Shown piece after piece: positions 1 through 35,826 of a stretch of DNA of 43,842 nucleotides; the first letter of the stretch is position 1, and the number at the start of each line of letters is the position of its first letter. A program made the position numbers and the translations under genes. The notes beneath the pieces are model-generated. The model had not been told where the DNA came from. It ran no database searches and saw only the letters and a list, made by a program, of their open reading frames with translations. This DNA comes from a virus, in the IMG/VR virus record IMGVR_UViG_3300037108_000055, positions 1 through 43,842 of that record; one strand, given 5' to 3'.

Positions 1-354
1 ATCATCCTCCACCAGCACAAGCCACACGGCACCTGGTACGCATATGTCCGCGGCTGCCGCTGTGTGGAGTGCCAGGCTGCGGCGCGCGAGTACCAGCGCC
101 ACATCCGAGTCGATGCGCAGCGCGCCACAGTGCCCTGGCAAACGAGAAGAGAGATGTACCTGCGAGCTAAGCGCCAACTGCGGAAACTAATTGACGATGG
201 CTGGCCGCGCCCTCTCCTCTCACGCGAGCTGGGGTTTGCCGGCGGGTGGCTGCCGATCTACAGCCAGGCGCGCAAGTTTGAGGCGCGTACCGCCTCGAAG
301 GTCGAAAGGCTCGCCAGGCGCATTGAGGGCGGCTACCTCCAGAGGCTCGCGTGA
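1..354 (+). CDS. Small helix-turn-helix DNA-binding protein, 5' end cut by window
   Basis: The frame is open from base 1, so the true start is probably outside the window; a GTG at 64 is the first in-window start. The N-terminal part has an HGTWYAYVRGCRCVEC stretch followed by AAREYQ. This resembles the His/Cys-rich head of small phage regulators that couple such a motif to a helix-turn-helix. The C-terminal half (LIDDGWPRPLLSRELGF, then a basic helix) fits a helix-turn-helix. It overlaps the next gene by 4 bp (GTGA), so the two are probably co-translated. The role as a regulator is inferred from the fold-like pattern only. Confidence 0.65.
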   Translation: MILHQHKPHGTWYAYVRGCRCVECQAAAREYQRHIRVDAQRATVPWQTRREMYLRAKRQLRKLIDDGWPRPLLSRELGFAGGWLPIYSQARKFEARTASKVERLARRIEGGYLQRLA

Positions 355-776
355 GCACCTGCGCGTTCTGCCCGGCCATCGGGGATCTGCAAATCTGCGG
401 CTTTCCGGTTCAGGGCTTCGTGCCGTCGACGTATGGCCGGTTGGCGGTGGGCGACCAGGTGCGGCGGATCTCAGACAAGGCCGAGCGGCCGCCGGCTACG
501 GTGGTAAGGCTCAAGGCGAGATGCAATGGTGTGGAAATTCCCTGGGGGAGTAAAGCGATTACACCCGGGACGATGCTCTACGCCTACGCTTCGGTTACGG
601 TGATTCTGCAGAAGGCCAACGGCAAGGAGATTACCCGTGAGGTCTACGCCCGTTCGCCGGTTCGGGTCCTTCGGCAGATGGTTTGCGGGGCGCTGGTCTG
701 CGAGTTGCACCGCTGCGAGCGCGGGCCAGGTGCGACGTGCTGCGCTGATCACTGGCGATCCCTATCATCTTCGTGA
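351..776 (+). CDS. Cys-rich small protein of unknown function
   Basis: 141 residues from a GTG that overlaps the upstream stop in a GTGA. Cys pairs lie at both ends: CAFC and a further Cys near the N-terminus, and a cluster C..H.C...CCADHW near the C-terminus. Together these could form one or two zinc sites. The middle is beta-rich and looks like a small barrel (VGDQVRRIS, ATVVRLKARCNG, SVTVILQK). It converges on the large minus-strand gene, with 15 bp between the two stop codons. I do not recognise the family. A nucleic-acid-binding role with the preceding helix-turn-helix gene is a guess. Confidence 0.6.
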   Translation: MSTCAFCPAIGDLQICGFPVQGFVPSTYGRLAVGDQVRRISDKAERPPATVVRLKARCNGVEIPWGSKAITPGTMLYAYASVTVILQKANGKEITREVYARSPVRVLRQMVCGALVCELHRCERGPGATCCADHWRSLSSS

Positions 777-785
777 CGTCACGAA
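770..785. repeat. 16-bp perfect palindrome between convergent genes
   Basis: TTCGTGACGTCACGAA is perfectly self-complementary. It contains the stop codon of the plus-strand gene (774-776) and lies 7 bp from the end of the giant minus-strand gene. It could form a short hairpin with ACGT as loop, or bind a dimeric protein. There is no good U-tract, so a terminator role is weak. Confidence 0.55.
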
Positions 786-791
786 AGAGAT

Positions 792-3700
792 CTACGGGTG
801 CAGCAGTTTTCTCTGTTCTCTCTTCATGTGCTCGATGACGGAGTCGGATTTTGAGGCTCGAGCTTTCGACTCGTTCACCCTGCCGGTTTTGATCTGATCC
901 CAGATGTCTCGGGCCGTTCCTGGGGGTTTCGAGGGCTTCACGTGCTGAGGCGGCGTGCCAGCGAACAGGGTTGTGAGAAGCTCTTTGTTCTGGTACTTGT
1001 CGGCGTCGGGACCGGCGAGCATTTCCCATGCGTTAGCGAAGCTCCAGGGGAAAGGCACGAGAGACTTTCCCATCTCGATTACTCCGCGCGCGGTGGAGGC
1101 CAGCGGGTTCATGCCCTTCGGTGCGATCTCGCGGCCGAGAAAGGTCTCGTTCTTCTGCGATTCATTCCAGGCGCGCAGTCCTGGGCCGGCGGACTGGCCG
1201 ATGGTGCGCAGGGGGCCTTCGATGCCACCGTACTCGATGATGTTCCCCAGCGTGTTCGCCAGTTGCCCTGCCGCGCCGCGAAGGAAGATGTTCTGGTAGA
1301 CGTCGTTCCCGTCCTTGTCAGTTCCCATGTAGACCTGGGTGGGACGCTTCGAAGGCTTCCCCGAGAACATGAGGCTGGCGAGCTGGGTGGCGATCATACC
1401 GCCCGTGAGCGTTCGCAGCCAGAACATCCGCGCCATCTTGCCAGCCGGCGTGCCGCCCTCAAACGTATATTTCGCGTTGAGGATGTTGCTCCACCACCAA
1501 TCCGGAGCGAGTTGGAGTACCCGCGCGAAGTTTAAGGTCATTTTGTTGACGCCAAGGTTTTCCCAGTGCAGCCCTCCGTAAACCGCGTTGACTTCCTTCG
1601 CCATGCTCCGGAGCGCGGTATCGAGCTCGTCGCGGGTTGCCCCCGGATGCCTGGCAATCCAGCCAGCCTCGTGGATGGCCATGTCGGTGACCTTGAAACG
1701 CCGCTGCTGGTTCTCAAACGTGAACGAAGTAATAGCGTGCGCGGTCTGGTCCACCTGGCGGATAACCGGCAGCGACCTGAAGGCCTCGCTCGGTGTGGGA
1801 AGCGAACTCACAGTGAGCGGCCCGGTCGCCGCTAGGCCTTCCTCCATCCCTGGCGCGCTCTTCTGAATCGCCGTGGTCAACCCGTGGCCAATGTACCAGG
1901 CCTCCTGCCGCTCGAATTCGCGGCTGAATCGATCCGCCTTGAGCGCCTTCCAGTATCCGGTCGGCCCCATGTTGCCGAGCGCCATAGCGGTTTCGGCTGT
2001 GGCGTGGAAGAACGACATGGAGAGCTGCGCGGCCTTGGTGAAGATCTGATAATTTCGAGCCAGCCTGAACGCCGTCACACGATTCAGGTAATCGGGATCC
2101 GTTATCGGCTGAAACGCCTTCTCGACCTTCGGCGCGACGAAGAATCTCTCCGCTCCGTTCTGGAAGAGTTGGGCATGGGGAGCCATCTCGACCCAGCCCT
2201 TGGGGATGTTCTCTCCGCCTTTGACGCCCCAGCGCCCGGTGTCCGCTTCCCCCATGTGCTGGAGCAGCATGTGCGTGGCGCGCGCGGTCGCGAATTTATC
2301 GCCGTAGACCTCGAACGCCTTGAAGGGATCGAGGGTCCTCGGGCGCTGGTTGTTCGCGATGGCCTCCAGGATGGTAGGGAATTCGCGCTCCTGGTTGTAG
2401 GGGAAGTTGCGCCCGATCTTGCCACCGAGGGCGCGGCCCATCTTGTCGAAGGCGCCCTCTTTCTCTTCCGCCGGCTGCAACAAGTGAGTCACGTACTCGT
2501 CGGGCGAGACGTGCTCCTCGATGAACCCGAGCTTCTGGCCTTCCCGTAAAGAGACCTCTGCGATCGCTGTCAGTTCCTTGTCGGCCTTCAGCATGGCCGG
2601 CGTGGGATTGAGCGCCCGCTCGATCGACGGCTTGAGCTTGCGGATGTTTTCCTGGCCGATTGTGACGTCGGGAACGGTCATGTAGCCCATGTGCGTTCCG
2701 GCGAGCCATTGCTCCATCTGTCCTGGGGCGATGCGCGAGTCGCGCATTAGGTAGAGGCCTTCGCGGTCCACCGCTGAGGGAATCTCTCTCCGTAGCCTTC
2801 CCGTGATCTGACGCACCCGCGCGCTCCACAAATCCCGCTGGCCGGTGTAGTGCCAGACCTCGTTTTTCCCGTAGCGCTTTTCGGCTTCGGCGTTTACCTG
2901 CTCGGGGGTCTTCTGGATTTGCTTCAGGCTGAAGGAGCCGCGCTCGGAGCCGAGTCGGGAGGCGTTGAAAAGCGCGCCCTGCTCCGGGCCGTCCTCATCG
3001 AAGAGGCTTCGGTTTTTGGCGGGTTTGAGTTTCGACGGGCCTTTTGCCAGACCGGAGTTTATCTGCGCCGTGAGTTGATCGTGCAGCAGCCGATTCTCGC
3101 CGTGCTGGTTGTCTACTTGGGATTGCCGCTCGGCTTCGGGGCCGAAGAGGGAACCTTCTGGGTTTTCGCCGGCGGCGTTCCCGGCGGGTAAAAGATCGCG
3201 TGGCTGGCGCTCATAATCGGCACCCGTCGCATTCCGGAAGGCGGATGTATCAGGTTTATTTCCCGCTCCAGTCCGGCCTCTCCCTCCTGGTCGTAGGCGT
3301 CCAGGCACCTCACCAGGTTTTCCTCCACTTCCTTCAGGTCCTCTTCGGAGAGCGGAGATAACCCGCTTCGCGATTTCCCTTGGTTTGACACTGCCGTGCT
3401 CCCTCCTCAACTCTCGCACATACCGCGCTCCGAGAGACCTGGCCTCCGAATGGGAGAGGTCAAGTTGCTGGTAGCGCTGTGGCTGCATTAGGCGCGCGCC
3501 CACTTCGGCGGCGGCTTCTCCGGCGGACTCGAACTGATACCTCGATAACGCTGCGGTGGCGCGATTGCCTTCCGCGCTTCCCGCGACGAATGAGGAGGCG
3601 TTTGCCTCCGAAAGATGCCTATTGGCGGAGCGACCGCCGGCAAGCCTCGACTGCGCCGCGTGATCCAATTCTTCCCGCAACGCAGCCGTCTTCGTCTCGT

Positions 3701-6700
3701 CCGTGGCACCCTCGTGGTCACCGACGACGATCAGAGATTTTCCGGAAACGGCCGCGCGGGTCGCGGCATCTATGAGGTTCAGAACGGATTGCGGCGGCGT
3801 CGTGTACTCGGCGGCAGAGGAACGCGCCAATGCGGCCACTTTCCCGGCGTCCCCTGGTGCCAGGTGCAGGGCTCCCGCACCGCTAAGCTGCCCCGCCAAC
3901 CGGCTGATATACTCGATGCCGCTCGGATTCGTTACGTAGGCTACCGCGTGCTTCGCATCCTCCGGGTCGAGGGGGTGCTCCTCGAACTGCATGTGCCGAG
4001 CGTGCCAGTCGGCGCTCAGGTTCGGGGAGTATATCGCGTTGCGCCCGGTTGAAAGGCGGGGGACGCGGGAAGCGTTGAAGGGCGCAGCGGGAGAGTGCTG
4101 CGCGGTGGGTTCACTCGTTTGCTCGGCCTTGCGAGTCCAGTGCCTTCGAGCGTTCAGCGGGTTGGCCCCTTCGACATGGTAGAGACTGCCATCGCGGAAT
4201 TCGTAGAGGCCCTCCACTTTGGCGCGCCTCACCAGAATCTCTCCTGGCTCGATGTAGCGCCCTCCGCTGGAGTGCGTGTTTTCTTCCGGTACGACCTCGC
4301 CACTCAGTACAGCGAAACGACGGTGCGCTTCCCAGTAACCAACGTGCCAGTCACGCGCCTGCTCGAATGCGCGATCCAAGTCCCCGCGCGCATCGAATGC
4401 GCTCGTCCCGGGGAGGAGGCCTGTTGGCTTATAATTCGCCCAGGCCTCGGACGGGCCGATGATTTCGCCTACTTTGGGTGTTTCGCGGGGGTCAAGCGCC
4501 CGCACCGCGATGACTTTCCCCTCGGGCGTTTGCGGCTGTTTCTCTAGGGGATTGTCGCCCGGGCCGCCCTGTTTGGGCACCGGATGCGATTGTAGCGCAG
4601 GTACGCGGGAAGCGTTGAAGGGCGCAGCGGGAGAGGCCTTCGGCAGGAGGTCGGGATATTCTGCCAGCACTTCGGGTGGAACGGGATTTCCCTCGCGGAT
4701 AGCCTGGATCGCCACAGCGCGCATCTCCCTCATGAGTTCGATGCGCCGTTTCATAACCGTGGCGGGATTCCAGTATTTCCCAGTTGGCGGCGGCAAGCCT
4801 GGAATCTTGCCGTACCCCTCTGGCATGTTCTTCGTTGCAGCTGCGAGCTTCGCGTCCTCGGCCTGAATTTCGGCGATCGAGCGGGGCGCAGTAGGTGTGG
4901 TGGAGGGTTTGGACTGAGAGGGGGGGCTGCCTACCTGCTGCTCTGGCTCGGCTGCTCTTGCGGGGCCGCGCGCTTCGCCTGGGCCTCTCTGAGGTCCTTC
5001 TGGCGCATTCTCTCGCGGAGCCACGCCACGTTCGCCGGGTTCGCCGGGAGGTTGAACGGCCGCTTTGTCTCCGAAGAGGTCTTTCTGCGGTTCCCAGCGC
5101 TGCTTGGCTCGCTCATAGGCCGTCTCCAGAATATCAGCTTTCGACAGCGGAGCGGGAGGTCCGAACATCGAATCCTGCTTCGGGCTGCCGGCCTCATGCG
5201 CTACCTCGCTGTACTCCTTCAGAACCTCGCCGATTTTCTTTGCCGATTTCCGATTGTCGGCGAAAATCTGCACCAGCTTCTCCGCTACCGGGTCGCGCTC
5301 CTGGCCGGCGAGATCGCCTTGCGCCATCCAGTCTTTAACCGGCGTTCCCTCGCGGTGCAGATTGTCGAGGACTGCTGCCGCATCCGAGATCTCCTGGCCG
5401 AGTCCGACATCGAAGCGATCCCCACGCGAGACGGCTTCCTGGAACTGCGCCACCTTCGGCGCGGCTTGCAGCATTCCGGCGGTGATGTTCTTCAGCGACG
5501 GATTCTCGCTTTCAGCCATGCGCTCCAAGGCGCGCGGATCGGGGTAGGCCTTCGCAAAGACGGTGTTTCTGACGATACGGGCCCCGGTTTGCGAGAGCTT
5601 CCCGCTCGCATCCATGAAGACGCCCTGCTCTTCTACCGGCAGGCCTTTGATGAGTTCCCGCACAAACTCGGGATTCGGCGTGCCGTCCTCCTTCGGCTCG
5701 AAGGAATCCATGAGCGGCCCGGTCATGCGCCGGGAAAGAACCGCGGCCACTTCCGCATCGGACATGCGCGCGGCAGAACTCATGTTCGCTTCCTCTGCGA
5801 ATTGGGCCACGTCCGCAGGCTTCATCGCATCGGTGATGACGCGGGTCAGCACGGGATTGGGAATCGCAGCCACCCGTTGCGGATCGTCGCCGTAGTCCGC
5901 CGCGTGGTCGATGAGGTCCTGCTTGTAGGCAGCCGCCCTGGGGCTGCCCTCCGCGTAAAGTTCCTTCAGGGCTTGCGTTCCATGATTTCGGGTAATCGTG
6001 GTTCCGTCCGGCAAGGTGATCGGCGCGCCATCCGAGGCCAAGCGCGAATCCGCCATCAGGGCAAAATTCATATCGCCCTTACGCTGGTCCACGCGCGCGC
6101 GACTCGCCACCCGATCCGTGTTTCTCGGCTGATACTCCTGCGGGTAGCCCGGTCGGAAGGAGTTGGTGAGCTCCGAGGCATCGCGAATGTCGTACTGGAC
6201 GCCCACCTTGCGCCCCGTGATGGTGTAGACCTCGGCGGCTTTGCCGCTGGCAGCTGTGGGAACGTCCGGGCCGGCGACCGGCTTCTGGCTTGGGGCAGGC
6301 AGAAACTCTTTCGGGATTTCGGGCTGCTGAGGCTCTGGAGGCTCAGGAGCCGCTTTCCAGCCCTTCCCCAGGTCTAACCCGCCCTCGGATGGCGATACAG
6401 TCTGTGGCTGTTGAGCCACAGGGGCGGGAAGGAACTCAGGGGGAACGTTGGGTTTCTCCTCAGCCAATGTCGCGGCCGCTGGCGGCTGATTCGCCGATGC
6501 TGCCGGCGGCTGGGGAGAGTTTGCCCTACGTTCCTGGATTGCTGCCGCCCTCTGCTCCGCTATGGCGTCTTCGATAGGATTGGAGGTCCAGCCCTCGCCA
6601 AGATCTGTAGGGGGTGGCGCTGGCGTGGGTTCGACGGGCTGGGCGGGGGATGGTGGCGGGGAAGGCGGTGGAGGGGCTGGGGCCGATTCTGGCGCAGGGG

Positions 6701-7850
6701 CGCCCGGTCTGAGGCCTTGAGCCGTGGCCATCCTGTCAGCCTCGTAGGCTCCCTGCCTGCGGATGCCCTCTTGGCCGAAGATTTCCATTTTCGGGCGGTC
6801 GCCGGCCTGGCGCGCCGCTTGGTAGCCGTACATCACCTGGTGGTCAGTCAGCGAGGTGGGGTCGATGCCCTGACCGAACATTCCGCCGGGGCCGAATAGG
6901 CCGGAGACTTTCGCCACCGCGCCGCCGACTCCCAGCCCGGCAAGGTTTCCGCCTAGTTCGGCGTAGTCGGGCTTGGCTCCTGCCGCTTCGAGGGCTCTCT
7001 TGGCCCCTTCGCTGGCCAGATCGTACCCTGCCAGCGTCGCCACCGTGCGGATCGGCGCCTGCATCGCGGCGTAGGGAATCAGCACGCTCCCGATCTCAAG
7101 GCCGCCCTTGACGACTTTCCCGGTCCCGCCTACCAGTTGATTGAGACCTTCCGGGAGATAGGTCTCACCTTTGAGCCGATTCGCCTTGGACTGTCGGGCG
7201 GCCTCCTCCGGAGAGGCTGCTTTCGCCATGTCCCCGATTTCAGAGAGACCTTGCGCCACGTTATCGAGCGCCTGGAATCCGAGGTCGAAGGGACCGAGGC
7301 CGAACTTCTGCCGCGCCTCGTCGACGACCTTCTGCGCGGGCGCGGGAAGGATCGACGGCTTCGGCCTTGAGAAATCGACCGGCTGCGTTCCCCGCGGCCC
7401 GGTGTAGGTTTGCGTGCCGGGCGTGCGGGTATAGACCGAGAGCGGCGCGCCGGGGCCCGGCGGTTTCGGAGGATTCGGCTCCTCGGCGAGAATCTGCGGA
7501 CCTGGTTGCGTCGGCGCTTTCGCCTTCCACGCGTCCAGTTGTCGGTTGTAGGCTTCGGCGGCTTGCCGCTGTTCGGCGGTATCCCAGAAGGGAGCTTCGT
7601 CCCCTTCGGCATCCTCGGGGAGGGACTGTCCTGGTCGAAAGCGGGGATAGTCGAGGCCCTTGGGAAGTGAAGGCGCTCCGGAAGTATCGGCGCGTCCACC
7701 GGCGGTGGATCCGCCGACCGGCGCCAGCGCCGCGGCGGAGGGCTGCGGCGCCACTTTCCAGCCTTTCCCCAAATCGACAGACGAATCCTCGGGCACAGGC
7801 GGGGGAGTTGCCTGGCCTGGCGGCCCGATGATCCAGCCCTGGGAACCCAT
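792..7850 (-). CDS. Giant polyvalent virion protein with DdrB/ParB-like and zincin-like domains (2352 aa)
   Basis: The last gene of the late operon and by far the largest. Residues 1-540 are mostly Pro/Ala-rich and disordered, with three DLGxGW motifs. Residues about 545-890 match the DdrB-like ParB domain of phage polyvalent proteins (YPQEYQPRNTDR, then DGAPITLPDGTTI and NHGTQAL). Around residue 1393, REELDHAAQ resembles the zincin-like domain of the same protein class. Residues about 1590-2320 are a helical, partly hydrophobic region (LSMSFFHATAETAMALG) typical of large injected phage proteins. Three FNASR motifs sit in linkers. The architecture suggests a protein carried in the head and ejected with DNA, acting in the host early in infection; that is inference. 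No lysozyme or RNA polymerase motif was recognised. Two linkers contain candidate nested genes. Confidence 0.85.
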   Translation of the reverse strand: MGSQGWIIGPPGQATPPPVPEDSSVDLGKGWKVAPQPSAAALAPVGGSTAGGRADTSGAPSLPKGLDYPRFRPGQSLPEDAEGDEAPFWDTAEQRQAAEAYNRQLDAWKAKAPTQPGPQILAEEPNPPKPPGPGAPLSVYTRTPGTQTYTGPRGTQPVDFSRPKPSILPAPAQKVVDEARQKFGLGPFDLGFQALDNVAQGLSEIGDMAKAASPEEAARQSKANRLKGETYLPEGLNQLVGGTGKVVKGGLEIGSVLIPYAAMQAPIRTVATLAGYDLASEGAKRALEAAGAKPDYAELGGNLAGLGVGGAVAKVSGLFGPGGMFGQGIDPTSLTDHQVMYGYQAARQAGDRPKMEIFGQEGIRRQGAYEADRMATAQGLRPGAPAPESAPAPPPPSPPPSPAQPVEPTPAPPPTDLGEGWTSNPIEDAIAEQRAAAIQERRANSPQPPAASANQPPAAATLAEEKPNVPPEFLPAPVAQQPQTVSPSEGGLDLGKGWKAAPEPPEPQQPEIPKEFLPAPSQKPVAGPDVPTAASGKAAEVYTITGRKVGVQYDIRDASELTNSFRPGYPQEYQPRNTDRVASRARVDQRKGDMNFALMADSRLASDGAPITLPDGTTITRNHGTQALKELYAEGSPRAAAYKQDLIDHAADYGDDPQRVAAIPNPVLTRVITDAMKPADVAQFAEEANMSSAARMSDAEVAAVLSRRMTGPLMDSFEPKEDGTPNPEFVRELIKGLPVEEQGVFMDASGKLSQTGARIVRNTVFAKAYPDPRALERMAESENPSLKNITAGMLQAAPKVAQFQEAVSRGDRFDVGLGQEISDAAAVLDNLHREGTPVKDWMAQGDLAGQERDPVAEKLVQIFADNRKSAKKIGEVLKEYSEVAHEAGSPKQDSMFGPPAPLSKADILETAYERAKQRWEPQKDLFGDKAAVQPPGEPGERGVAPRENAPEGPQRGPGEARGPARAAEPEQQVGSPPSQSKPSTTPTAPRSIAEIQAEDAKLAAATKNMPEGYGKIPGLPPPTGKYWNPATVMKRRIELMREMRAVAIQAIREGNPVPPEVLAEYPDLLPKASPAAPFNASRVPALQSHPVPKQGGPGDNPLEKQPQTPEGKVIAVRALDPRETPKVGEIIGPSEAWANYKPTGLLPGTSAFDARGDLDRAFEQARDWHVGYWEAHRRFAVLSGEVVPEENTHSSGGRYIEPGEILVRRAKVEGLYEFRDGSLYHVEGANPLNARRHWTRKAEQTSEPTAQHSPAAPFNASRVPRLSTGRNAIYSPNLSADWHARHMQFEEHPLDPEDAKHAVAYVTNPSGIEYISRLAGQLSGAGALHLAPGDAGKVAALARSSAAEYTTPPQSVLNLIDAATRAAVSGKSLIVVGDHEGATDETKTAALREELDHAAQSRLAGGRSANRHLSEANASSFVAGSAEGNRATAALSRYQFESAGEAAAEVGARLMQPQRYQQLDLSHSEARSLGARYVRELRREHGSVKPREIAKRVISALRRGPEGSGGKPGEVPGRLRPGGRGRTGAGNKPDTSAFRNATGADYERQPRDLLPAGNAAGENPEGSLFGPEAERQSQVDNQHGENRLLHDQLTAQINSGLAKGPSKLKPAKNRSLFDEDGPEQGALFNASRLGSERGSFSLKQIQKTPEQVNAEAEKRYGKNEVWHYTGQRDLWSARVRQITGRLRREIPSAVDREGLYLMRDSRIAPGQMEQWLAGTHMGYMTVPDVTIGQENIRKLKPSIERALNPTPAMLKADKELTAIAEVSLREGQKLGFIEEHVSPDEYVTHLLQPAEEKEGAFDKMGRALGGKIGRNFPYNQEREFPTILEAIANNQRPRTLDPFKAFEVYGDKFATARATHMLLQHMGEADTGRWGVKGGENIPKGWVEMAPHAQLFQNGAERFFVAPKVEKAFQPITDPDYLNRVTAFRLARNYQIFTKAAQLSMSFFHATAETAMALGNMGPTGYWKALKADRFSREFERQEAWYIGHGLTTAIQKSAPGMEEGLAATGPLTVSSLPTPSEAFRSLPVIRQVDQTAHAITSFTFENQQRRFKVTDMAIHEAGWIARHPGATRDELDTALRSMAKEVNAVYGGLHWENLGVNKMTLNFARVLQLAPDWWWSNILNAKYTFEGGTPAGKMARMFWLRTLTGGMIATQLASLMFSGKPSKRPTQVYMGTDKDGNDVYQNIFLRGAAGQLANTLGNIIEYGGIEGPLRTIGQSAGPGLRAWNESQKNETFLGREIAPKGMNPLASTARGVIEMGKSLVPFPWSFANAWEMLAGPDADKYQNKELLTTLFAGTPPQHVKPSKPPGTARDIWDQIKTGRVNESKARASKSDSVIEHMKREQRKLLHP
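3113..3391 (-). CDS. Candidate nested gene in the +1 frame of the polyvalent gene (92 aa)
   Basis: A GTG start with GAGGAGG about 10 nt upstream opens a 92-codon frame inside the giant gene. Its first half reads like a normal soluble protein (LSEEDLKEVEENLVRCLD), while the giant frame there is Gly/Arg/Pro-rich. By hand count over 35 codons in the middle of the segment, third positions are G or C in 28 of 35 nested codons but only 9 of 35 giant-frame codons. The tail after about residue 65 is Pro/Lys-rich and less convincing. It could be a true overlapping gene or the trace of paired frameshifts in the giant gene. Confidence 0.4.
   Translation of the reverse strand: MSNQGKSRSGLSPLSEEDLKEVEENLVRCLDAYDQEGEAGLEREINLIHPPSGMRRVPIMSASHAIFYPPGTPPAKTQKVPSSAPKPSGNPK
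4063..4095. repeat. 33-bp exact direct repeat, copy 1, coding the SPAAPFNASR motif
   Basis: Identical to 4603-4635, 540 bp away. On the minus strand it encodes SPAAPFNASRV in the giant protein. A looser third protein copy (GALFNASRLG) lies nearer the C-terminus, so this is a reused linker motif. The DNA identity indicates a recent duplication or gene conversion. Confidence 0.85.
4603..4635. repeat. 33-bp exact direct repeat, copy 2
   Basis: Second copy of the 33-bp repeat at 4063-4095, in the same coding frame of the giant protein. Recombination between the copies would delete 540 bp (180 codons) in frame. Confidence 0.85.
4931..5116 (-). CDS. Candidate nested gene in the +1 frame of the polyvalent gene (61 aa)
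   Basis: An ATG preceded by CTGGAGACGGCCT (GGAG, 8 nt spacing) opens a basic 61-codon frame with an amphipathic stretch (VAWLRERMRQKDLREAQAKR). By hand count, third positions are G or C in 53 of 61 nested codons, against 36 of 62 in the giant frame. The giant frame here is a low-complexity Pro/Gly/Glu linker between the ParB-like region and the next domain. It is in the same +1 register as the other nested candidate. Function unknown; an artefact of composition is possible. Confidence 0.35.
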   Translation of the reverse strand: MSEPSSAGNRRKTSSETKRPFNLPANPANVAWLRERMRQKDLREAQAKRAAPQEQPSQSSR

Positions 7851-7854
7851 GAGG

Positions 7855-9180
7855 TTAGTTCATGAAGTAGACGATGCCGTCCTTCTTGATCCAGGTGTGC
7901 CCGTCTGGAGCGGTGGCTTGCTGGCCCTCCTGGAGTTTGTCCACCACGTCCCGGGGAGGCTGCGCGGCCTTCAGAACCCTGCCCTTGCGGTACTGCACGT
8001 CCTGAAGGTTGTTTGTCGCCTTCGCATACTGAGCCTGGACCATCGGCCTCGCAATCGGCTTGCCGGCGTCGTCCGTCCCGCTCGCGAGTTGGGGCCCGAG
8101 CCGATTCCGAACGTCGTGATAGTCCTGCTCCTCTTTCGCCAGCGCGTTCAGCCGCGAGATCTCGAAGCGACTCTGTACGCCTTGCTGCCCCGGGGTTGGC
8201 GCGCCTGAGCCGCGCAGCGCCGCGCGAGCGTTCGCTCCAGCTTGGTTCCCCTGCGCTATCTTCTCTTTGGTCGCGTTGTTCTGCCCAGTGATGTCTTCCT
8301 GGGTGCCGAACTTCAGCCCGGCGATGTCGGAGAGCGTCTGGTTTCTTCCTGCCGCGATGGTCTCGCCGGATGTATTCTTCGCCGCGCTTCGATCGCCCGC
8401 TGCCTTGTTCGCCGCCGCCGCGGAAGCCGCGCGCAATGCGGAGCCGTAGAGTCTGCCCGGTACGGTCGGCGGCAAGAGCCCGCTGGCCTGTGCGTCGGTT
8501 GGGGTGGCGATCGGCGCATTCTGCCCGGTAGCGTTCTTGTACGCGGCCCAGTGCGCCGGGTCGATGTAGCTCCTGGTGCCGTCCGGTTCGTCTACCGAGA
8601 TGGCCGTCGCCATGAACTTCGACTTCGCCGCCGCCGCGGCGCGGTCGTTATCCCGCTGCGCCTGCTCTTCCGGCGTGTACACCTCTCCCGGAATCTTATT
8701 TCCCTGCCGATCCCGATAGAAGACCTGGCGAGACGCGTCGGCCTTGCGCATGTACGTTGTGGCTGGAACCGTGGCCTGCGTTCCGGGAAGACCGGATACC
8801 GGGGCCGATGGCTGAGGCGCGGTCGGGCCGCCTGGATCTTGATACGGATCCGCTGGCCCAACGGCAGGAGATTGCGGAGTCGGAAGAGCTGCAACCCGAT
8901 TCTGCGCCGTCGCCACCTGTGGGCTCGGCTGGTTGTAGGTTTGCGCCGGCAGGGTATCCTGCACCATCCCGTTGACCACGGGCCGTGTGTTTTGCTGGAA
9001 CGCCTGTCGGTTCATGATGTCCTGAATCGAGGCGTTCGATTCATCCAGCGCCGCTTTTCGGGTGTACGCTTCGTTCTGCTGCTTGTAGTTCAGAAGCTGC
9101 TGCCGAAGGCCGTAGCCGTTGACGATGCCGTGCAGCAATCCGCCGATCGCGCTCTCTACTCCGCCTGCTGTCGTTCCCAT
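7855..9180 (-). CDS. Putative internal virion protein (441 aa)
   Basis: ATG start with GGGGAG that overlaps the end of the upstream gene. The protein is Ala/Gln/Asn-rich with a helical N-terminus (GLRQQLLNYKQQNEAYTRKAALDE), a Pro/Gln-rich middle and a helical stretch near residues 330-400. The composition and its position between a small virion protein and the giant protein match ejection or internal core proteins of podoviruses. No catalytic motif is visible. The family is not recognised; the role is inferred from position. Confidence 0.65.
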   Translation of the reverse strand: MGTTAGGVESAIGGLLHGIVNGYGLRQQLLNYKQQNEAYTRKAALDESNASIQDIMNRQAFQQNTRPVVNGMVQDTLPAQTYNQPSPQVATAQNRVAALPTPQSPAVGPADPYQDPGGPTAPQPSAPVSGLPGTQATVPATTYMRKADASRQVFYRDRQGNKIPGEVYTPEEQAQRDNDRAAAAAKSKFMATAISVDEPDGTRSYIDPAHWAAYKNATGQNAPIATPTDAQASGLLPPTVPGRLYGSALRAASAAAANKAAGDRSAAKNTSGETIAAGRNQTLSDIAGLKFGTQEDITGQNNATKEKIAQGNQAGANARAALRGSGAPTPGQQGVQSRFEISRLNALAKEEQDYHDVRNRLGPQLASGTDDAGKPIARPMVQAQYAKATNNLQDVQYRKGRVLKAAQPPRDVVDKLQEGQQATAPDGHTWIKKDGIVYFMN

Positions 9181-9182
9181 GG

Positions 9183-9788
9183 TTAATCTCCCCAGCCCAT
9201 CATCGTGCTCGAGTCCGGCGCCTGGACCGGCATATTCATGACGGCCCCACCGGAGGAACCGCCGCCGCCGCCGGTCGGCACGGCCATTAGCAAGCTTGCC
9301 AGGCTGCCGAGAATATCGCCTAGCCCCGGCGTGCTCGTCTGCGTCGACGTCGAGTTGCTCGTGCCGGTGGTGGACGTGCCCTTTCCGGTGTTCAGGAGTT
9401 GCTCTCCCAGCGAAGCGCCGAAATTCTGCTGATTGATCGCATCCGTAGCGATTCCGCCTTCGAAGTTCGAAACCGCTCCAGCCCTTGCCAGACCGGTGTT
9501 AAACATCGCGTCGCCCATGGTGCCCGAAGATCCGTAGCCGCGGCTGGCCATGTTCTTTGCCACCGTGGCTGGCGCCGTGGCATACGTCTGGTTGATGGAG
9601 TTCAGCCCGGCGTTCTCGACGGGTTTCAGCGCCGCAGTCGGATTCGACATCGAAGTGCTCGAGTAGTTGAGGAGATTGGTCATCAACTGTTGGAGCTGGG
9701 GAGAGAACGTCGGCGTTGCGCTGGCGCTGGTCGATCCCGATGTGTTGGTGGTTTGGCTACCGCCGAGAAGGCCCGATAGAAACGACAT
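9183..9788 (-). CDS. Putative small virion/ejection protein (201 aa)
   Basis: ATG with AAGGA 8 nt upstream. Low-complexity Ser/Thr/Gly-rich ends flank a central helical region (LQQLMTNLLNYSS to NNFGASLGEQLL-like sequence). The C-terminus has a pentaglycine run, ending in MMGWGD. Glycine-rich, Ser/Thr-rich proteins at this place in podovirus genomes are often internal head proteins released with DNA. It forms one transcription unit with the 441-residue and giant proteins downstream. No enzymatic motif. Confidence 0.6.
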   Translation of the reverse strand: MSFLSGLLGGSQTTNTSGSTSASATPTFSPQLQQLMTNLLNYSSTSMSNPTAALKPVENAGLNSINQTYATAPATVAKNMASRGYGSSGTMGDAMFNTGLARAGAVSNFEGGIATDAINQQNFGASLGEQLLNTGKGTSTTGTSNSTSTQTSTPGLGDILGSLASLLMAVPTGGGGGSSGGAVMNMPVQAPDSSTMMGWGD

Positions 9789-9822
9789 GGTGATTATCCT
9801 TGAATCCCTGTAAGCTCGGAGC

Positions 9823-10038
9823 GTGCCGTCCTTGGCCCACTACAAAAGAGTGCTGCTCCAATCGGTCCAGGCCCAGGCGCGTCGCCAAGGATTAGAGGTC
9901 CCGGCAGGAGCTTTCCGCTTCGTCAGCTACGATTTCCACGGGGAGCCGGTGCTCGCCGTCAGATGCACTTCGCATCCGGATCTGCGCCTCGCGCTGTTCC
10001 ACCGGGTATGGAACGCCCATCGGCGTGGCGAGTACTGA
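9823..10038 (+). CDS. Small moron-like gene on the opposite strand (71 aa)
   Basis: GTG start 34 bp from the divergent 9183-9788 gene. The product looks globular (LAHYKRVLLQSVQAQARRQG, then FRFVSYDFHGEPVLAVRCT). Third-position GC stays high through the part overlapping the C-terminal codons of the GNAT gene (about 22 of 29 by hand count), which supports it being real. A TAAGCT hexamer lies 6 nt before the start and could be a -10 box. Function unknown. It is one of three plus-strand insertions in the late operon. Confidence 0.5.
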   Translation: MPSLAHYKRVLLQSVQAQARRQGLEVPAGAFRFVSYDFHGEPVLAVRCTSHPDLRLALFHRVWNAHRRGEY

Positions 10039-10534
10039 GGCCGGCCTCGAACCCTTCTTTGCTCAACCCGTAGAGCCACACGTCCCGCGGATGGCCGCCC
10101 GACATCGTGTGCCCGATGAGGGTTCCCTCGCGTCTGGCGCCGAGCGCGCACACGAGCGAGCTCGTGGCGCAGTACGGCGCCGCAAGGACCTGGAACTCCA
10201 GCTTCCCTAACCCAGGCTCCGCAAACATCTCTGCGACCGCCAGCCGCGACGCCTTCAGCGTGAAACCGTGCCCCTGGAAGTCCGGCTTCAATAGATAACG
10301 AACGCTGCCCAACCACGGCGACATGCGCTCGAACGTCACCAGGCCGCCCAGTTCGCCCCCGCCGTGCACCGCCCACGTCCTCAGCCGCCCCCATTGCGCC
10401 TGCATGCAGTCCAGAAAGGCCGTCAAATCCCGCGGGCTGAAATCGTCCGAGACTTTTTCGCGGAAAGGCTCGATCCACCGCCACACCCGCGGCAACGCTT
10501 CGAAGGGGAACGGGGTGACAACTCGAATCTGCAC
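9959..10534 (-). CDS. GNAT-family N-acetyltransferase-like protein
   Basis: About 191 residues. I prefer the GTG at 10534, which has GAGG 5 nt upstream, over the TTG 21 bp earlier. The middle has the GNAT pattern: a strand before LLKPDFQGHGFTLKASRLAV (acetyl-CoA loop and helix), then KLEFQVLAAPYCATSSLVCA, where neighbours of this fold have the N..S helix, and a final strand (VWLYGLSKEGFE). GNATs in phage tail-fibre regions probably modify virion or host components; the substrate is unknown. The last 25-27 residues overlap the plus-strand gene and have mixed third positions, so the ancestral stop may have been earlier. Confidence 0.7.
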   Translation of the reverse strand: MQIRVVTPFPFEALPRVWRWIEPFREKVSDDFSPRDLTAFLDCMQAQWGRLRTWAVHGGGELGGLVTFERMSPWLGSVRYLLKPDFQGHGFTLKASRLAVAEMFAEPGLGKLEFQVLAAPYCATSSLVCALGARREGTLIGHTMSGGHPRDVWLYGLSKEGFEAGLSTRHADGRSIPGGTARGADPDAKCI

Positions 10535-10541
10535 CTGAACC

Positions 10542-13500
10542 TCAGAACGTCGCAAAACTGAATCCCCCCGAAATGTAGAGGCATCCCGCTGCGTTGAACA
10601 CCGCGATGCTCCCGTTTGGAAGCACCTGGAATTGCGCTGCCACGCCCGCGGCTCCGGTCGAACCGGCCATCGGGAAGATCACGATTGCAGCCGGTCTGTA
10701 GCCCACTGGAAGCACTCCTACGACCGTGGTGTTCGCTGGCCCTGCCGACCCGCTCCTGGCATACCGCACGAAGACCTCACCCCGGCTGTTTTTTCGGTAG
10801 CTGGATGGCGCATCACCGCTGCCTAGATCCGTTCCCCAGGTGTCGCCAGCTATGGGCGTCCAAGGGCTGTATCCCGTGCCGGGAGCGCTCGATTCCACGA
10901 TGTTTCCGACTCCGGCGTCCGAGATGGAGCCATACTGCGCGTTGGTAACCAGGTTGTAGGCGTCCGTGGCGTTGAACACGATATCCGCGCCTCCGTTGCC
11001 GAATGCCTGCACGTTGTTCATCGTGTTGTACACGTTCTGCGATCCCTGGAAATGGACTCCGTTTGATGTGCAAGCGGTTGAAATCACGTTGTCAAACTGG
11101 TTGCGGTAGCATCCCAGTTGAATCGAGAGTCCGGTCTCGCCGTTCGCCGCGTCCGAACCGTCCACGTTTACGAAGTTGCTCCAACAGACGCCCATCAGCT
11201 TGATGGACCGCCCCGCCGAGCCACCGGAGATCAGGTTCGTCACCTGATGCCCGAGGCCCTCTATCCACAGCATTCCGAAGTTGCTATTCGTAATGTTGAT
11301 GTCAGAGTAAATACAGAACGACTCATGGTACGAGATGAACGAAGCCGCCGCGCCGTTTCCGCACCCGTCAAACGTCAAGCCGCTGAACCGTGTCCGGTAG
11401 CACAAATTCGAATAGATGCCCGTGCTCCCGTAAATCCCGGAAGTGGGTCCGAAGTTCTTAAAGTTCAAATTTTCCAGCCGCGAGTTCGCCAACCCGGTCG
11501 CATATATCCCGTTGTAGCCAATCGTCCCGGTTGCGCTGATCCCGTCGAACGTCAGGCCGGAAATGCAAACGTTCTGCGCCAATGTGGCTGGCGCCACACC
11601 GTACCCAGCCGCCGCCAGTGGTATTCTGATCGCCTCATAGGGCGTGATCGTCGTGCCCACAATGCTCTTGATCTTCACAATTTGGTACAACTCGTAAGTT
11701 TGCGTGCCGCCGTAATAGGCCTGCGCAGAGGAGTACCCCAGCATCCCGTACCCGCCCACTGAAAACCCGGAGGCGGAGGCTACTTGGAAGGAAGGCGTTA
11801 TGGTCGAATGCCGCGTGGCGAACGTGCCGTAGTCCGAAGAGAAATTGGTCGGCGCTCCCTGCCCGTAGCCCAGCACGCTCAGGCAGGATACAGGCCCTGA
11901 CCCGGGCCCCGAGGCGGAATAATTCAGCGAGATCGTCGGATTCCCGATACCAACCAGCGAAAAGTTTGAAACCCCGCCGATCGTGATTGTCGCGTAAACC
12001 GTGGTGTTCTGAGTCACCGCGACACAGAATGGAACGCCCGCCGTCTTGCCGTGTTGCAACGCCTCGTGGATGCCTCCGCTGGAACTGCTGATCGTCCAGG
12101 CACCGGTGTGCGTATGGGCGCAACTGAAGCTCAACGTGGCCCCCGCTGCGGCGCCTTCGACCGCGTTGCCCCCGGTGATGCACACCGCCTCCGGTGTGCC
12201 GCCGCCGCCGCTGATCAAAAAGTAATGCGCCACGTCCGATCCGTTCAGGCCTAGCGGAACCGACCCCGGCAGCGTGATAGTGTTCAGTCCCACGCCGAGG
12301 TTCCCGCTTGTCGGCGTCTGCGAGAACTGATAATCGGTCGCCCGCATCATCAGCGAACTGGCCGCCGCGCTCGGCGTCCAGGCCGACCCGTTCCACGCGA
12401 GCGCCTGGTTGATGGCTGGCGCGGTGGACGAGATGTTGTACCCTTGCAATTGGCTGGCGTTAGCACTGGCCCCGCCCGCTGCCGTGGGCTGCCAGCAGTT
12501 ATTGGCCGCGCTCCACGCGAGAACCTGCGTATCGACCGGCGCTGTGGCCGCCACGGCGTAGCCTTGCAGGGCCGTGATTGTCGGCGAGAGCCACGATCCG
12601 TTTTCGCACAGGAACCGCGCGCTTCCAGCCATCGCGCCAGGATCGGGCACGATTCCGGGCGAATGGCCCGGGCCGCTGGCCGCCATCCTCGGCAGATCTC
12701 CCGTGCCAATCGGGTTTCCCGGCATGTAGACGTCCGAGGTGGCCGCGACCCGCGTTACATTCAAGGCCGTACGGAGGACGAGGCCGTTGTTGCCTGGGTC
12801 CGCGAGCCCCCCGCCGCCGACGCTTCCCGCCGGCACAGCCCAGGTCGAATTTTCGCAGAGGAACCTCAGGGAGCCGGCAGCCGGCCCCGGGTCTGGGACC
12901 GCGCCCTCCGCGTGCGTCGCGCCCGAGGCCATGAACACCGGAAGATCCGCGGCAAGCAAGGCGTACCCGGGCGCGTAGTAATCGCCCGCGTTCCCCGGCG
13001 TGGCAACCGTCGTGGTGTTAAGGGACGTGCGCTTCAGTAGCCCGTTGGCCCCTGAGTCCTGTAGGCCTGCTGCCACCCATCCCGATCCGGAGTTGACCCA
13101 GAGTTTGAAACTCGCGTCCACTGCGAGTTTCCCGGCCGCGTTCGCCGGCAGAGTCCCCGGCGTCAGCGTGATCGAGGCGCAGGCCAGCAGGTTATGAGCC
13201 GCCGCGTTGATATCCTGTCCCCAAGGGGTCTGAGCGAGAGCGGAGATCGCCGACCACGCGCCCGAGAAGTAGATCTGCGGAACTCCGTACCCGTCGATGG
13301 CCATCATTCCGGACGCGAGCGTCCCGCCCACCGTTACCGTGCCACCGCTCGACCATCCGGCCAGGCTCGCCGCCACCGCGTAACTGATGGTGGTCGCTCC
13401 CGCGGATGTGACCTGGACCTTGACGACGTTGTAGCCGGAGGGTGTTGCCCCGGCAACCGTAACGAGCTGGCCGGCCACCATCTTGTGAGGCCCGACCGTC

Positions 13501-34107: not shown

Positions 34108-35826
34108 TCAGTCGTCATCTCTCACCGCCGCTTTCCGCCGGTAGCTTTGCGGACGCGAACTACTCGCTTCTTTGGCAGCTTCTTCGCGAAAGGCGAAGGC
34201 TCGTCTGGCATACGCAAGTCCCTCAACGGCGAGCGCAACTCCGAATACGTCGTCATCGTGAACGATTCCTTCCTCGCGTCCATTGGCCTTTCTGACAAAC
34301 TGCCGTAGCTGCATGAGCGTCTCGGGATCGTGCAGTTTGATGGCGCCCTGCCTCACCGCCTGGTCGAGGCCTGAAATCAGCACGGGTCGAAAAACCGTGT
34401 TGGTGTCAAAGCCCAACTCCTGAAGCATTGGCGAGCGCCGGTCGCTCGGATCCCGCTGCTTGCTGTAGATCAGTTCCAGCGGGTATTGCAGGGTCAAAAG
34501 CTGACCAATGACTGCTTTTCCTACAGCTTTTTGCTCGGGTGTGATGAAGGCCCAGTTGTAGAACTTGCCGAGCCAGTAGAGCCTCTCCGCCCAAGGGGCC
34601 GGCTCGTAGCGCTCCTTGATCTTGGCGACCTCTTCGCCGGTGTCCGCGTCGAGGACCGTGGCGCTGGAGTAGTCCGGGTCGCTGCTGCCTGTCTTGGCCG
34701 AAGGGTCGATTCCCTCCGCGTGGTCGGCGCCGATGCAGTAGCGCCCGCCGGCGCGCGGCATCCGGTAGATCACCAACTCGCCGCGGCCATCGTCCGACTG
34801 CATGAACTGGACGCGCTTCTCCAGGCCGACCTCGACCACCTCCAGCCGTCCTCGCGGCGCGCCTTGAACCTCCGGCATCCGTGCCACCGCCTGCATGTCG
34901 AAGATCGTCCGCCCCGAGCTTTGAAACGCTTCCTGCGGGTTGCCAGGGAACTCCTGGCGGAATCTCTCGATCTTACCTTCGCAGGCCGTCTCGATCTGCC
35001 GGCGGCGCCAGGCGATCTGATCCACATGCAGGTTGTACTTCTGCAGCTCGGCCAGCTCTTCCCGCGTGAGCTTGAATCCCGGCTCGGGTGTGATTCGGTA
35101 TTCCGGATGCTCCCAGTAGCCGAAAAAAACGAACTCCCAACCGCTCGCTCGCCTCGGGTCCATGGCGCGCTGGCACAAATCGTAGAAGTCGCCGCCCATG
35201 CCGTTCGCCGTGGATTCGACAATCACGCCTGAATCGGGCGAGTTCGGGACCCGCTGCATCAGTCCCGTCATGACGCCGCCGAGGCTCGGGTAGAACGCCG
35301 CCTCGCTCAGAACTGTCCAGTTGTAGGGCGCCGACCGCCCGATCTCCTGGTTCTTCCCGGTACCGACGAGCACGCTGGAATCGTTGTTCCACCGAATCCA
35401 GCGTTCAGTGTCTTTGACCAACTCCGGCAGTTTGATCGCCGCATGCCACTCGACGCCCCACGGATTCTCCATGTAGGACAGGATGTACTGCCGAAAGTAC
35501 TCGAAGATCAGATCCGCATGGTCCTCGCTGTCCGCCAGGACCAGCCCGCGGCGGCCCGGGAAGAATGGCACGCGATGGAACACTTCCGTGAGAGCCGAGC
35601 TCGTCATCCACACCTGGGAGGCCTTCAGGCAAGCGACTCTGATCGGTTGCCCCGCCTCTTCCTGCTTGCGGATCGCCTTGTGCAGCTTCTGGCCGGCGGG
35701 AGAGTTCCGGTAGGGGACTGAGATCCCCTCCTTGTTGCGGATGCTCAGGCACTGGCAGAATTTCCCGTGATCGGCGAAACCTCGGATCATCGCGCGCGTC
35801 TCGCGCGCGCTTAGGGTTTCGGTCAA
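34108..35826 (-). CDS. Terminase large subunit, TerL (572 aa)
   Basis: The motor-nuclease that packages DNA through the portal. The N-terminal ATPase has a Walker A-like segment CLKASQVWMTSS (Lys68) in the place of the usual KxRQxGxS, a Walker B-like strand (NWTVLSEAAFYP; Ser before Glu), and coupling motif GVIVESTANGMGGDF. The C-terminal RNase-H-like nuclease has GADHAEGIDPSAK, DPDYSSATVLD and HDDDVFGVAL, supplying the acidic metal ligands. The likely start is a TTG overlapping the upstream stop (TTGA) with GAGGG before it; a later start is possible. Downstream of TerS, as usual. Confidence 0.9.
   Translation of the reverse strand: MTETLSARETRAMIRGFADHGKFCQCLSIRNKEGISVPYRNSPAGQKLHKAIRKQEEAGQPIRVACLKASQVWMTSSALTEVFHRVPFFPGRRGLVLADSEDHADLIFEYFRQYILSYMENPWGVEWHAAIKLPELVKDTERWIRWNNDSSVLVGTGKNQEIGRSAPYNWTVLSEAAFYPSLGGVMTGLMQRVPNSPDSGVIVESTANGMGGDFYDLCQRAMDPRRASGWEFVFFGYWEHPEYRITPEPGFKLTREELAELQKYNLHVDQIAWRRRQIETACEGKIERFRQEFPGNPQEAFQSSGRTIFDMQAVARMPEVQGAPRGRLEVVEVGLEKRVQFMQSDDGRGELVIYRMPRAGGRYCIGADHAEGIDPSAKTGSSDPDYSSATVLDADTGEEVAKIKERYEPAPWAERLYWLGKFYNWAFITPEQKAVGKAVIGQLLTLQYPLELIYSKQRDPSDRRSPMLQELGFDTNTVFRPVLISGLDQAVRQGAIKLHDPETLMQLRQFVRKANGREEGIVHDDDVFGVALAVEGLAYARRAFAFREEAAKEASSSRPQSYRRKAAVRDDD

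Follow-up and report, generated by a model that had tools for sequence, protein, structure and literature searches.

The giant gene and the reading frame nested in it

The window analysed here, 43,842 nucleotides of an uncultured virus (IMGVR_UViG_3300037108_000055), carries on its minus strand a giant gene for a polyvalent-type protein and, in the +1 frame of that gene, a short open reading frame with its own start signals (Table 1). The sole Pfam domain of the giant protein is ddrB-ParB (PF18763, aa 546-672, E=7e-21), and PHROG 5143 matches aa 531-919 (E=6e-61); the two matches place the protein among the large multidomain polyvalent proteins of phages (PMC5512222). It is large and multidomain, bears known domains and is encoded in a virion gene cluster: in relatives, too, the giant gene keeps its synteny with the genes for portal, terminase, and structural proteins. 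In an epsilon15-like phage, the DdrB domain sits in the ejection-gene cluster. A second contig is identical to positions 1-13000 of the window, which offers no variation and makes a sequence error unlikely.

Table 1. Features of the giant gene and nested +1 reading frames (window positions unless another locus is named)
Feature	Position	Strand	Description
Giant gene	792..7850	-	2352 aa (2352 codons), polyvalent-type protein
DdrB-ParB module of giant protein	5088..6245	-	aa 536-921
Second nested +1 ORF (candidate)	4931..5116	-	ATG, 61 aa, GGAG 7 nt upstream, after DdrB module
EExxH domain of giant protein	3351..4091	-	just upstream of nested gene; EExxH..Q, E1393-E1394-H1397
+1-frame TGA stop	3407..3409	-	just upstream of nested start; TAA at same place in L115
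Shine-Dalgarno GAGGAGG	3402..3408	-	10 nt before GTG; less common giant codons TTG AGG AGG
Nested gene, family A (putative)	3113..3391	-	+1 frame of giant gene, 92 aa, GTG start, TAG stop
Conserved core of nested protein	3242..3349	-	codons 15-50, predicted helical hairpin; overlaps giant Gly/Arg linker
C-terminal module of giant protein	795..3158	-	aa 1565-2352, common to L143-L150
Family B	L144, L145, L147		+1 nested
Family C	L115:5432-5650, L143:8274-8498, L144:8547-8708, L149, L150		+1 nested
Family D	L144, L145, L146, L147, L149		+1 nested
Tandem D + B inside one giant-gene linker	L145:6993-7370, L147:7761-8114, L144:6486-6935		+1

The initial annotation, made from the sequence alone, proposed that the coding signal moves to the +1 frame within the giant gene. 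Between 3356 and 3252, G or C occupies the third position of 9 of 35 giant-frame codons (0.26) and the first position (third in the +1 frame) of 27 of 35 (0.77), matching the earlier hand count. A codon log-odds model built from the genes of this virus scores the 40 codons at 3350..3231 at -7.5 in the giant frame versus +5.7 in the +1 frame, and the lowest giant-frame score of the whole gene (-9.1) falls in the nested stretch. The codon usage of the nested frame is thereby virus-like. An open +1 frame alone is unremarkable, surviving in 21% of synonymous recodings of this stretch. The +1-minus-giant score, which peaks at aa 1499-1533, exceeds all 300 whole-gene synonymous permutations, and the same test gave no signal in the +2 frame of the giant gene. 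As the null of this test is gene-wide codon usage, locally odd codons in the linker could mimic part of the codon signal; they could not mimic conservation of the +1 frame across species.

AlphaFold, run on a two-sequence alignment, predicts helices at residues 16-36 and 38-48 of the nested protein (pLDDT ∼90 or more) and is confident in this hairpin only. The sequence is hydrophilic and without a hydrophobic stretch on inspection, and the predicted soluble hairpin has neither the lipobox-bearing signal peptide nor the transmembrane segment expected of an Rz1-type lysis protein. Searches of both reading frames, recommended by the initial annotation, were productive for the giant frame through the ddrB-ParB and PHROG 5143 matches, whereas the +1 protein had no relative in Pfam, PHROG, or the PDB; Foldseek returned no significant match to its model. 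Direct searches of phages, plasmids, and genome contigs with the nested protein or the C-terminal part of the giant protein gave no useful relative, and the sole match in single-protein scans of viral contigs was this virus again, identical in sequence and thus with no polymorphism.

Conservation of the nested frame in diverged viruses

Twenty close relatives were recovered through the terminase (64-78% identity), those on long contigs having giant genes too divergent to compare. In alignment, the Walker-A-like region of the large terminase subunit of the window (34108-35826, minus strand) is unusual, reading LKASQVWMTS against LKARQxGxST in relatives. A conserved gene that lies upstream of the giant one (9962-10555) led to a comparable giant gene, in record IMGVR_UViG_3300025941_000005 (L115). 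This upstream gene, also on the minus strand, is positioned as are the acetyltransferase genes beside ejection proteins in related podoviruses.

The giant protein of L115 (2631 aa) is 47% identical to that of the window from aa 1254 to the end. At the same place it contains a +1 ORF with a TAA stop, AAGGAAGGAG, an ATG, and an in-register GTG, and the counterpart of the GAGGAGG Shine-Dalgarno sequence is TTAAGGAAGGAG. The nested protein of L115 begins MEVSHQEKS...EAEDNLTRCLEAYDQKGEEGLQAELSRIHP... and terminates at a TAG in the equivalent position. From the shared GTG the two +1 proteins align without gaps for 53 codons, and they are 43% identical.

This conserved start region bears on whether the nested sequence is reached by initiation or by programmed +1 frameshifting, which would produce a truncated giant protein with a C-terminal tail of nested sequence that ends at 3113. 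Upstream Shine-Dalgarno-like sequences can stimulate +1 shifts, as in prfB, which counts towards frameshifting, as does the TAG conserved in register in L115. However, the +1 stop lies right at the Shine-Dalgarno sequence in both the window and L115, so that any +1 shift must occur downstream of it, and the start codon is conserved together with proper Shine-Dalgarno spacing. Family B, moreover, has an operon-like stop, Shine-Dalgarno sequence, and ATG, and there is neither a giant-frame stop nor an obvious slippery site. Frameshifting is accordingly improbable, although it fares best among the alternatives to a nested gene.

Selection since the divergence of the two viruses was compared frame by frame, a check that the initial annotation had called for. 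Over 1061 aligned codons, substitutions occur at giant positions 1, 2, and 3 at 0.39, 0.31, and 0.58, respectively; in the nested stretch alone they shift from giant position 3 to position 1, the wobble position of the nested frame. The excess of position 1 over position 3 reaches its maximum among 1031 windows at starts of ∼3377-3386, and +1 similarity has its maximum among 1031 windows at starts 3338-3323. None of 20,000 synonymous recodings of both giant genes attains the observed +1 similarity (146 versus a mean of 45 and a maximum of 127). In the 36-codon core, which overlaps the Gly/Arg linker of the giant protein, pN/pS is 0.59 in the +1 frame and 1.74 in the giant frame. The rest of the giant gene gives 0.54 in the giant frame and 1.10 in the +1 frame. 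The first 14 nested codons resemble this remainder (giant 0.48 versus +1 1.17), that is, the giant frame is constrained there. Bootstrap support for the core difference is 97%, a modest value owing to the short length of the stretch, and a single homologue is close enough for such a frame-specific comparison.

The same data address the view that +1 conservation is a by-product of giant-frame selection, shared ancestry, and composition. The giant frame is indeed open and partly similar here, and the pN/pS bootstraps are individually modest, but synonymous recoding of both giant genes never yields the +1 similarity observed, the shift in substitution position is the largest of the 1031 windows in the same gene pair, and other +1 families, including a tandem pair, exist. 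Such a by-product is very improbable.

A more distant copy occurs in G021, a virus whose terminase is ∼41% identical to that of the window virus and whose giant frame (2805 aa) is likewise open. Its +1 ORF lies behind AGGAGGT, reads MSTQQ...AADNFTDLFEAYRRGGQKTFRAKFDQIFPP, and is found in the linker before an LFG motif that also follows the nested core in the giant protein of the window. By the two-sequence profile alone the match is weak (9 bits); of 4851 recodings of the G021 giant gene, however, a single one scores as well (p about 2e-4). A family A candidate in L149, AYLAWEKGGDAGLLKHLL, with 29% identity over 34 residues, is suggestive only.

By substitution windows, recoding, pN/pS, and the recoding of G021, the +1 protein is conserved beyond what the giant frame demands. 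The GTG and AGGAGG of the nested ORF provide a start and ribosome-binding site of its own, and the GAGGAGG site that the initial annotation had assigned to the +1 frame indeed lies at 3408..3402, with the start region and Shine-Dalgarno region also present in L115 and G021. The impression that the 92-residue ORF reads as a real protein holds up, as it is conserved in L115, recognisable in G021, and positive in codon score. Of the two explanations offered at the time, a small gene nested in the linker is borne out by the +1 protein conserved in L115 and G021 within giant frames that both stay open (2631 and 2805 codons). The homologues do not keep giant-frame residues while stops appear in the +1 frame, a pattern that would have spoken against it.

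The nested ORF directly follows the EExxH domain of the giant protein. Beyond the window virus and L115, a profile of this domain finds only L148 (E 7e-6), L149 (0.002), and G021 (0.026) better than chance, and the EExxH..Q motif is common to all five members; the HExxH motif of zincins is found in none of them. A model of the domain (pLDDT 69) had no significant Foldseek match in the PDB. Family A occurs directly after the domain in four of the five giants that have it and in none of nine that lack it (Fisher p=0.005), an association to be read with caution because the L149 member is only suggestive. In L148 the domain is present, but a different-looking +1 ORF follows. The C-terminal module of the giant protein recurs at 41-58% identity in eight further giants (L143-L150), in which the upstream modules are mostly different, and the homology of L143 begins inside the tail of the nested gene. 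The pattern suggests that, as modules are exchanged between giant genes, the small nested gene moves along with the EExxH one.

Nested families across giant genes

The nested ORF at 3391..3113 is one case of a general pattern in the giant genes of this group. When the permutation test was applied to 14 giants, 12 had a +1 segment at p<0.01. Hits at this threshold in the +2 frame were confined to two N-terminal stretches near the beginning of the stop-to-stop ORF, where the true start is uncertain. The five +1 hits among 23 non-giant control genes map to the extreme start of the stop-to-stop ORF, apart from a borderline one close to the end, and the P7 and epsilon15-type DdrB proteins had no +1 segment. 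The giant genes of two isolated phages, Aeromonas phage phiARM81mr (L156) and Pseudoalteromonas phage Y7 (L157), were +1 positive. Their significant nested ORFs, at giant aa 434-497 and aa 1448-1544, respectively, can be tested at the bench. The systematic list contains 32 +1 segments versus 2 +2 segments, and some of those listed, which lack a Shine-Dalgarno sequence or lie in low-complexity regions, probably represent noise.

At least four nested families (A-D) recur, and all members identified occupy the +1 frame. In families B and C, pN/pS contrasts between the frames as it does in family A. Family C proteins share the pattern SPEFRxEMLDELK...GxxKLxPGNxI, and their tail overlaps a conserved giant-frame helix, KQxAYRxxRxxL. 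Where D and B stand in tandem, the last codons of D (CGG AGG TAA in L144 and L145, CGG AGG TAG in L147) contain the Shine-Dalgarno sequence for the ATG of B, which follows a few bases on. Read from its sequence, this pair, wholly within the giant gene, looks like a translationally coupled pair or hidden operon. No free-standing homologue of families A-D was found in the loci examined, nor of B and C in phage records.

The giant gene of the window has a second nested candidate, at 4931..5116, that reads MSEPSSAGNRRKTSSETKRPFNLPANPANVAWLRERMRQKDLREAQ... and has a +1 codon score of 11.0 in the codon-model scan and of 10.3 in the systematic list, the latter above every permutation. L115 is not alignable there, and in L148 a +1 ORF occupies the corresponding position (aa 957), after its own DdrB module.

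Patchy distribution and out-of-frame nesting in an in-frame spacer are also features of an HNH endonuclease gene hidden in the insert of a phage methylase (PMC11855218), and the nested ORF could by analogy be a hidden mobile gene that spreads by homing. The nested products, however, are of ∼45-110 residues compared with 195 aa for that enzyme, they match no HNH or other endonuclease family in Pfam and have no HNH signature on inspection, the nested ORFs have Shine-Dalgarno sites, and the occurrence of family A follows that of one domain in its host protein. Homing thus has little to recommend it, on a par with the by-product explanation.

Interpretation and relation to known systems

The other explanation in the initial annotation, a pair of compensating frameshifts or assembly errors that scrambled ∼45 giant codons and left the +1 frame as a fossil of the old frame, draws on the very poor giant-frame codon usage and would look alike in a single genome, but it is rejected here as the least probable of all, since frameshift scrambling predicts neither a start site nor conservation of an untranslated frame and a fossil would not retain a start codon and Shine-Dalgarno sequence in register, whereas the arrangement recurs in three viruses that have diverged, selection having acted on the +1 amino acids ever since, and the second contig is identical in sequence.

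The stretch 3391..3113 of the minus strand is very probably a genuine gene for a protein, nested in the giant gene at +1 and translated from its mRNA. Ribosomes would start at the GTG behind AGGAGG on that mRNA, as the conserved start region and Shine-Dalgarno sequence suggest. The product would be a 92-residue cytosolic protein, predicted to consist of a helical hairpin between two disordered tails, a Ser/Lys one before it and a Pro-rich one after it. The burden of the overlap would be staggered, with the free N-terminal tail of the nested protein lying over the constrained end of the giant EExxH domain and the hairpin over the giant Gly/Arg linker, in which no constraint of its own is detectable. 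On these predictions, the structured part of each protein is overlapped by the loose part of the other.

As for function, the nested protein may be a partner that shares its transcript with the giant ejection-type protein, either an assembly factor or an inhibitor of the adjacent module until injection, a proposal that is advanced tentatively. Polyvalent proteins are thought to be packaged and injected (PMC5512222). Membership of the giant protein in this class, the related genes in the ejection-protein cluster of an epsilon15-like phage, and the linkage to one module favour a partner that loads, protects, or silences. Homology lends this function no support, given the lack of relatives in Pfam, PHROG, and the PDB, of Foldseek matches, and of free-standing homologues. 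It is conceivable, and about as likely as the partner role itself, that the giant genes of this group were built up around small genes which remained functional in another frame. The linkers would then be overprinted older mini-genes (families A-D, including a two-gene operon), and each mini-protein would serve a neighbouring effector module as its dedicated partner (inhibitor, chaperone, or packaging factor) and be exchanged along with it.

Standard gene callers discard ORFs that lie within longer ORFs, so nested genes of this kind are likely absent from annotations, which have probably overlooked a layer of phage genes. They occur in giant injected proteins, which are among the least understood classes of phage proteins, and because they adjoin identifiable modules they offer a direct handle on function. 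Should the mini-proteins prove to be partners or inhibitors of the modules, they would reveal what stops a loaded effector from doing harm before a phage injects it. The origin of overlapping genes is a further question touched by the module-linked tandem arrangement, since by codon signature the short gene and not the long one is the better-adapted frame.

Nested overlapping genes are familiar from phages, as with E within D of phiX174 and Rz1 within Rz. Like these and viral +1 overprinted genes, the gene described here is short, lies wholly inside a longer one with a shift of one nucleotide, and has its own start, and one partner is loose where the frames overlap. Unlike them, several unrelated mini-gene families recur here in the linkers of giant modular proteins, one family is tied to a particular module and two stand in tandem, and the codon signature favours the nested over the giant frame. 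In one viral data set, 75% of overlapping genes are in the +1 frame (reviewed in PMC8227390).

The giant protein itself resembles polyvalent proteins in its very large size, DdrB-ParB domain, interchangeable modules, and virion gene cluster (Iyer et al., 2017; PMC5512222). The survey of that class describes no nested genes, using 'nested' only for a hairpin structure and 'overlapping' not at all, and its metallopeptidases have HExxH in contrast to the EExxH of the domain beside the nested gene (PMC5512222). The ShiLan domain is similar in its out-of-frame ORF, GTG start, and insert that stays open in the frame of the host gene (PMC11855218). It differs in encoding a 195-aa HNH nuclease in the third frame of a methylase with no detectable ribosome-binding site, whereas the nested protein here has 92 aa, lies in the +1 frame behind a strong Shine-Dalgarno sequence, and has no nuclease match. 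No report of a pattern of nested families in giant phage genes was found in the open-access literature searched. Nested +1 genes are already known; what appears to be new is the recurrence of mini-gene families in the linkers of giant genes.
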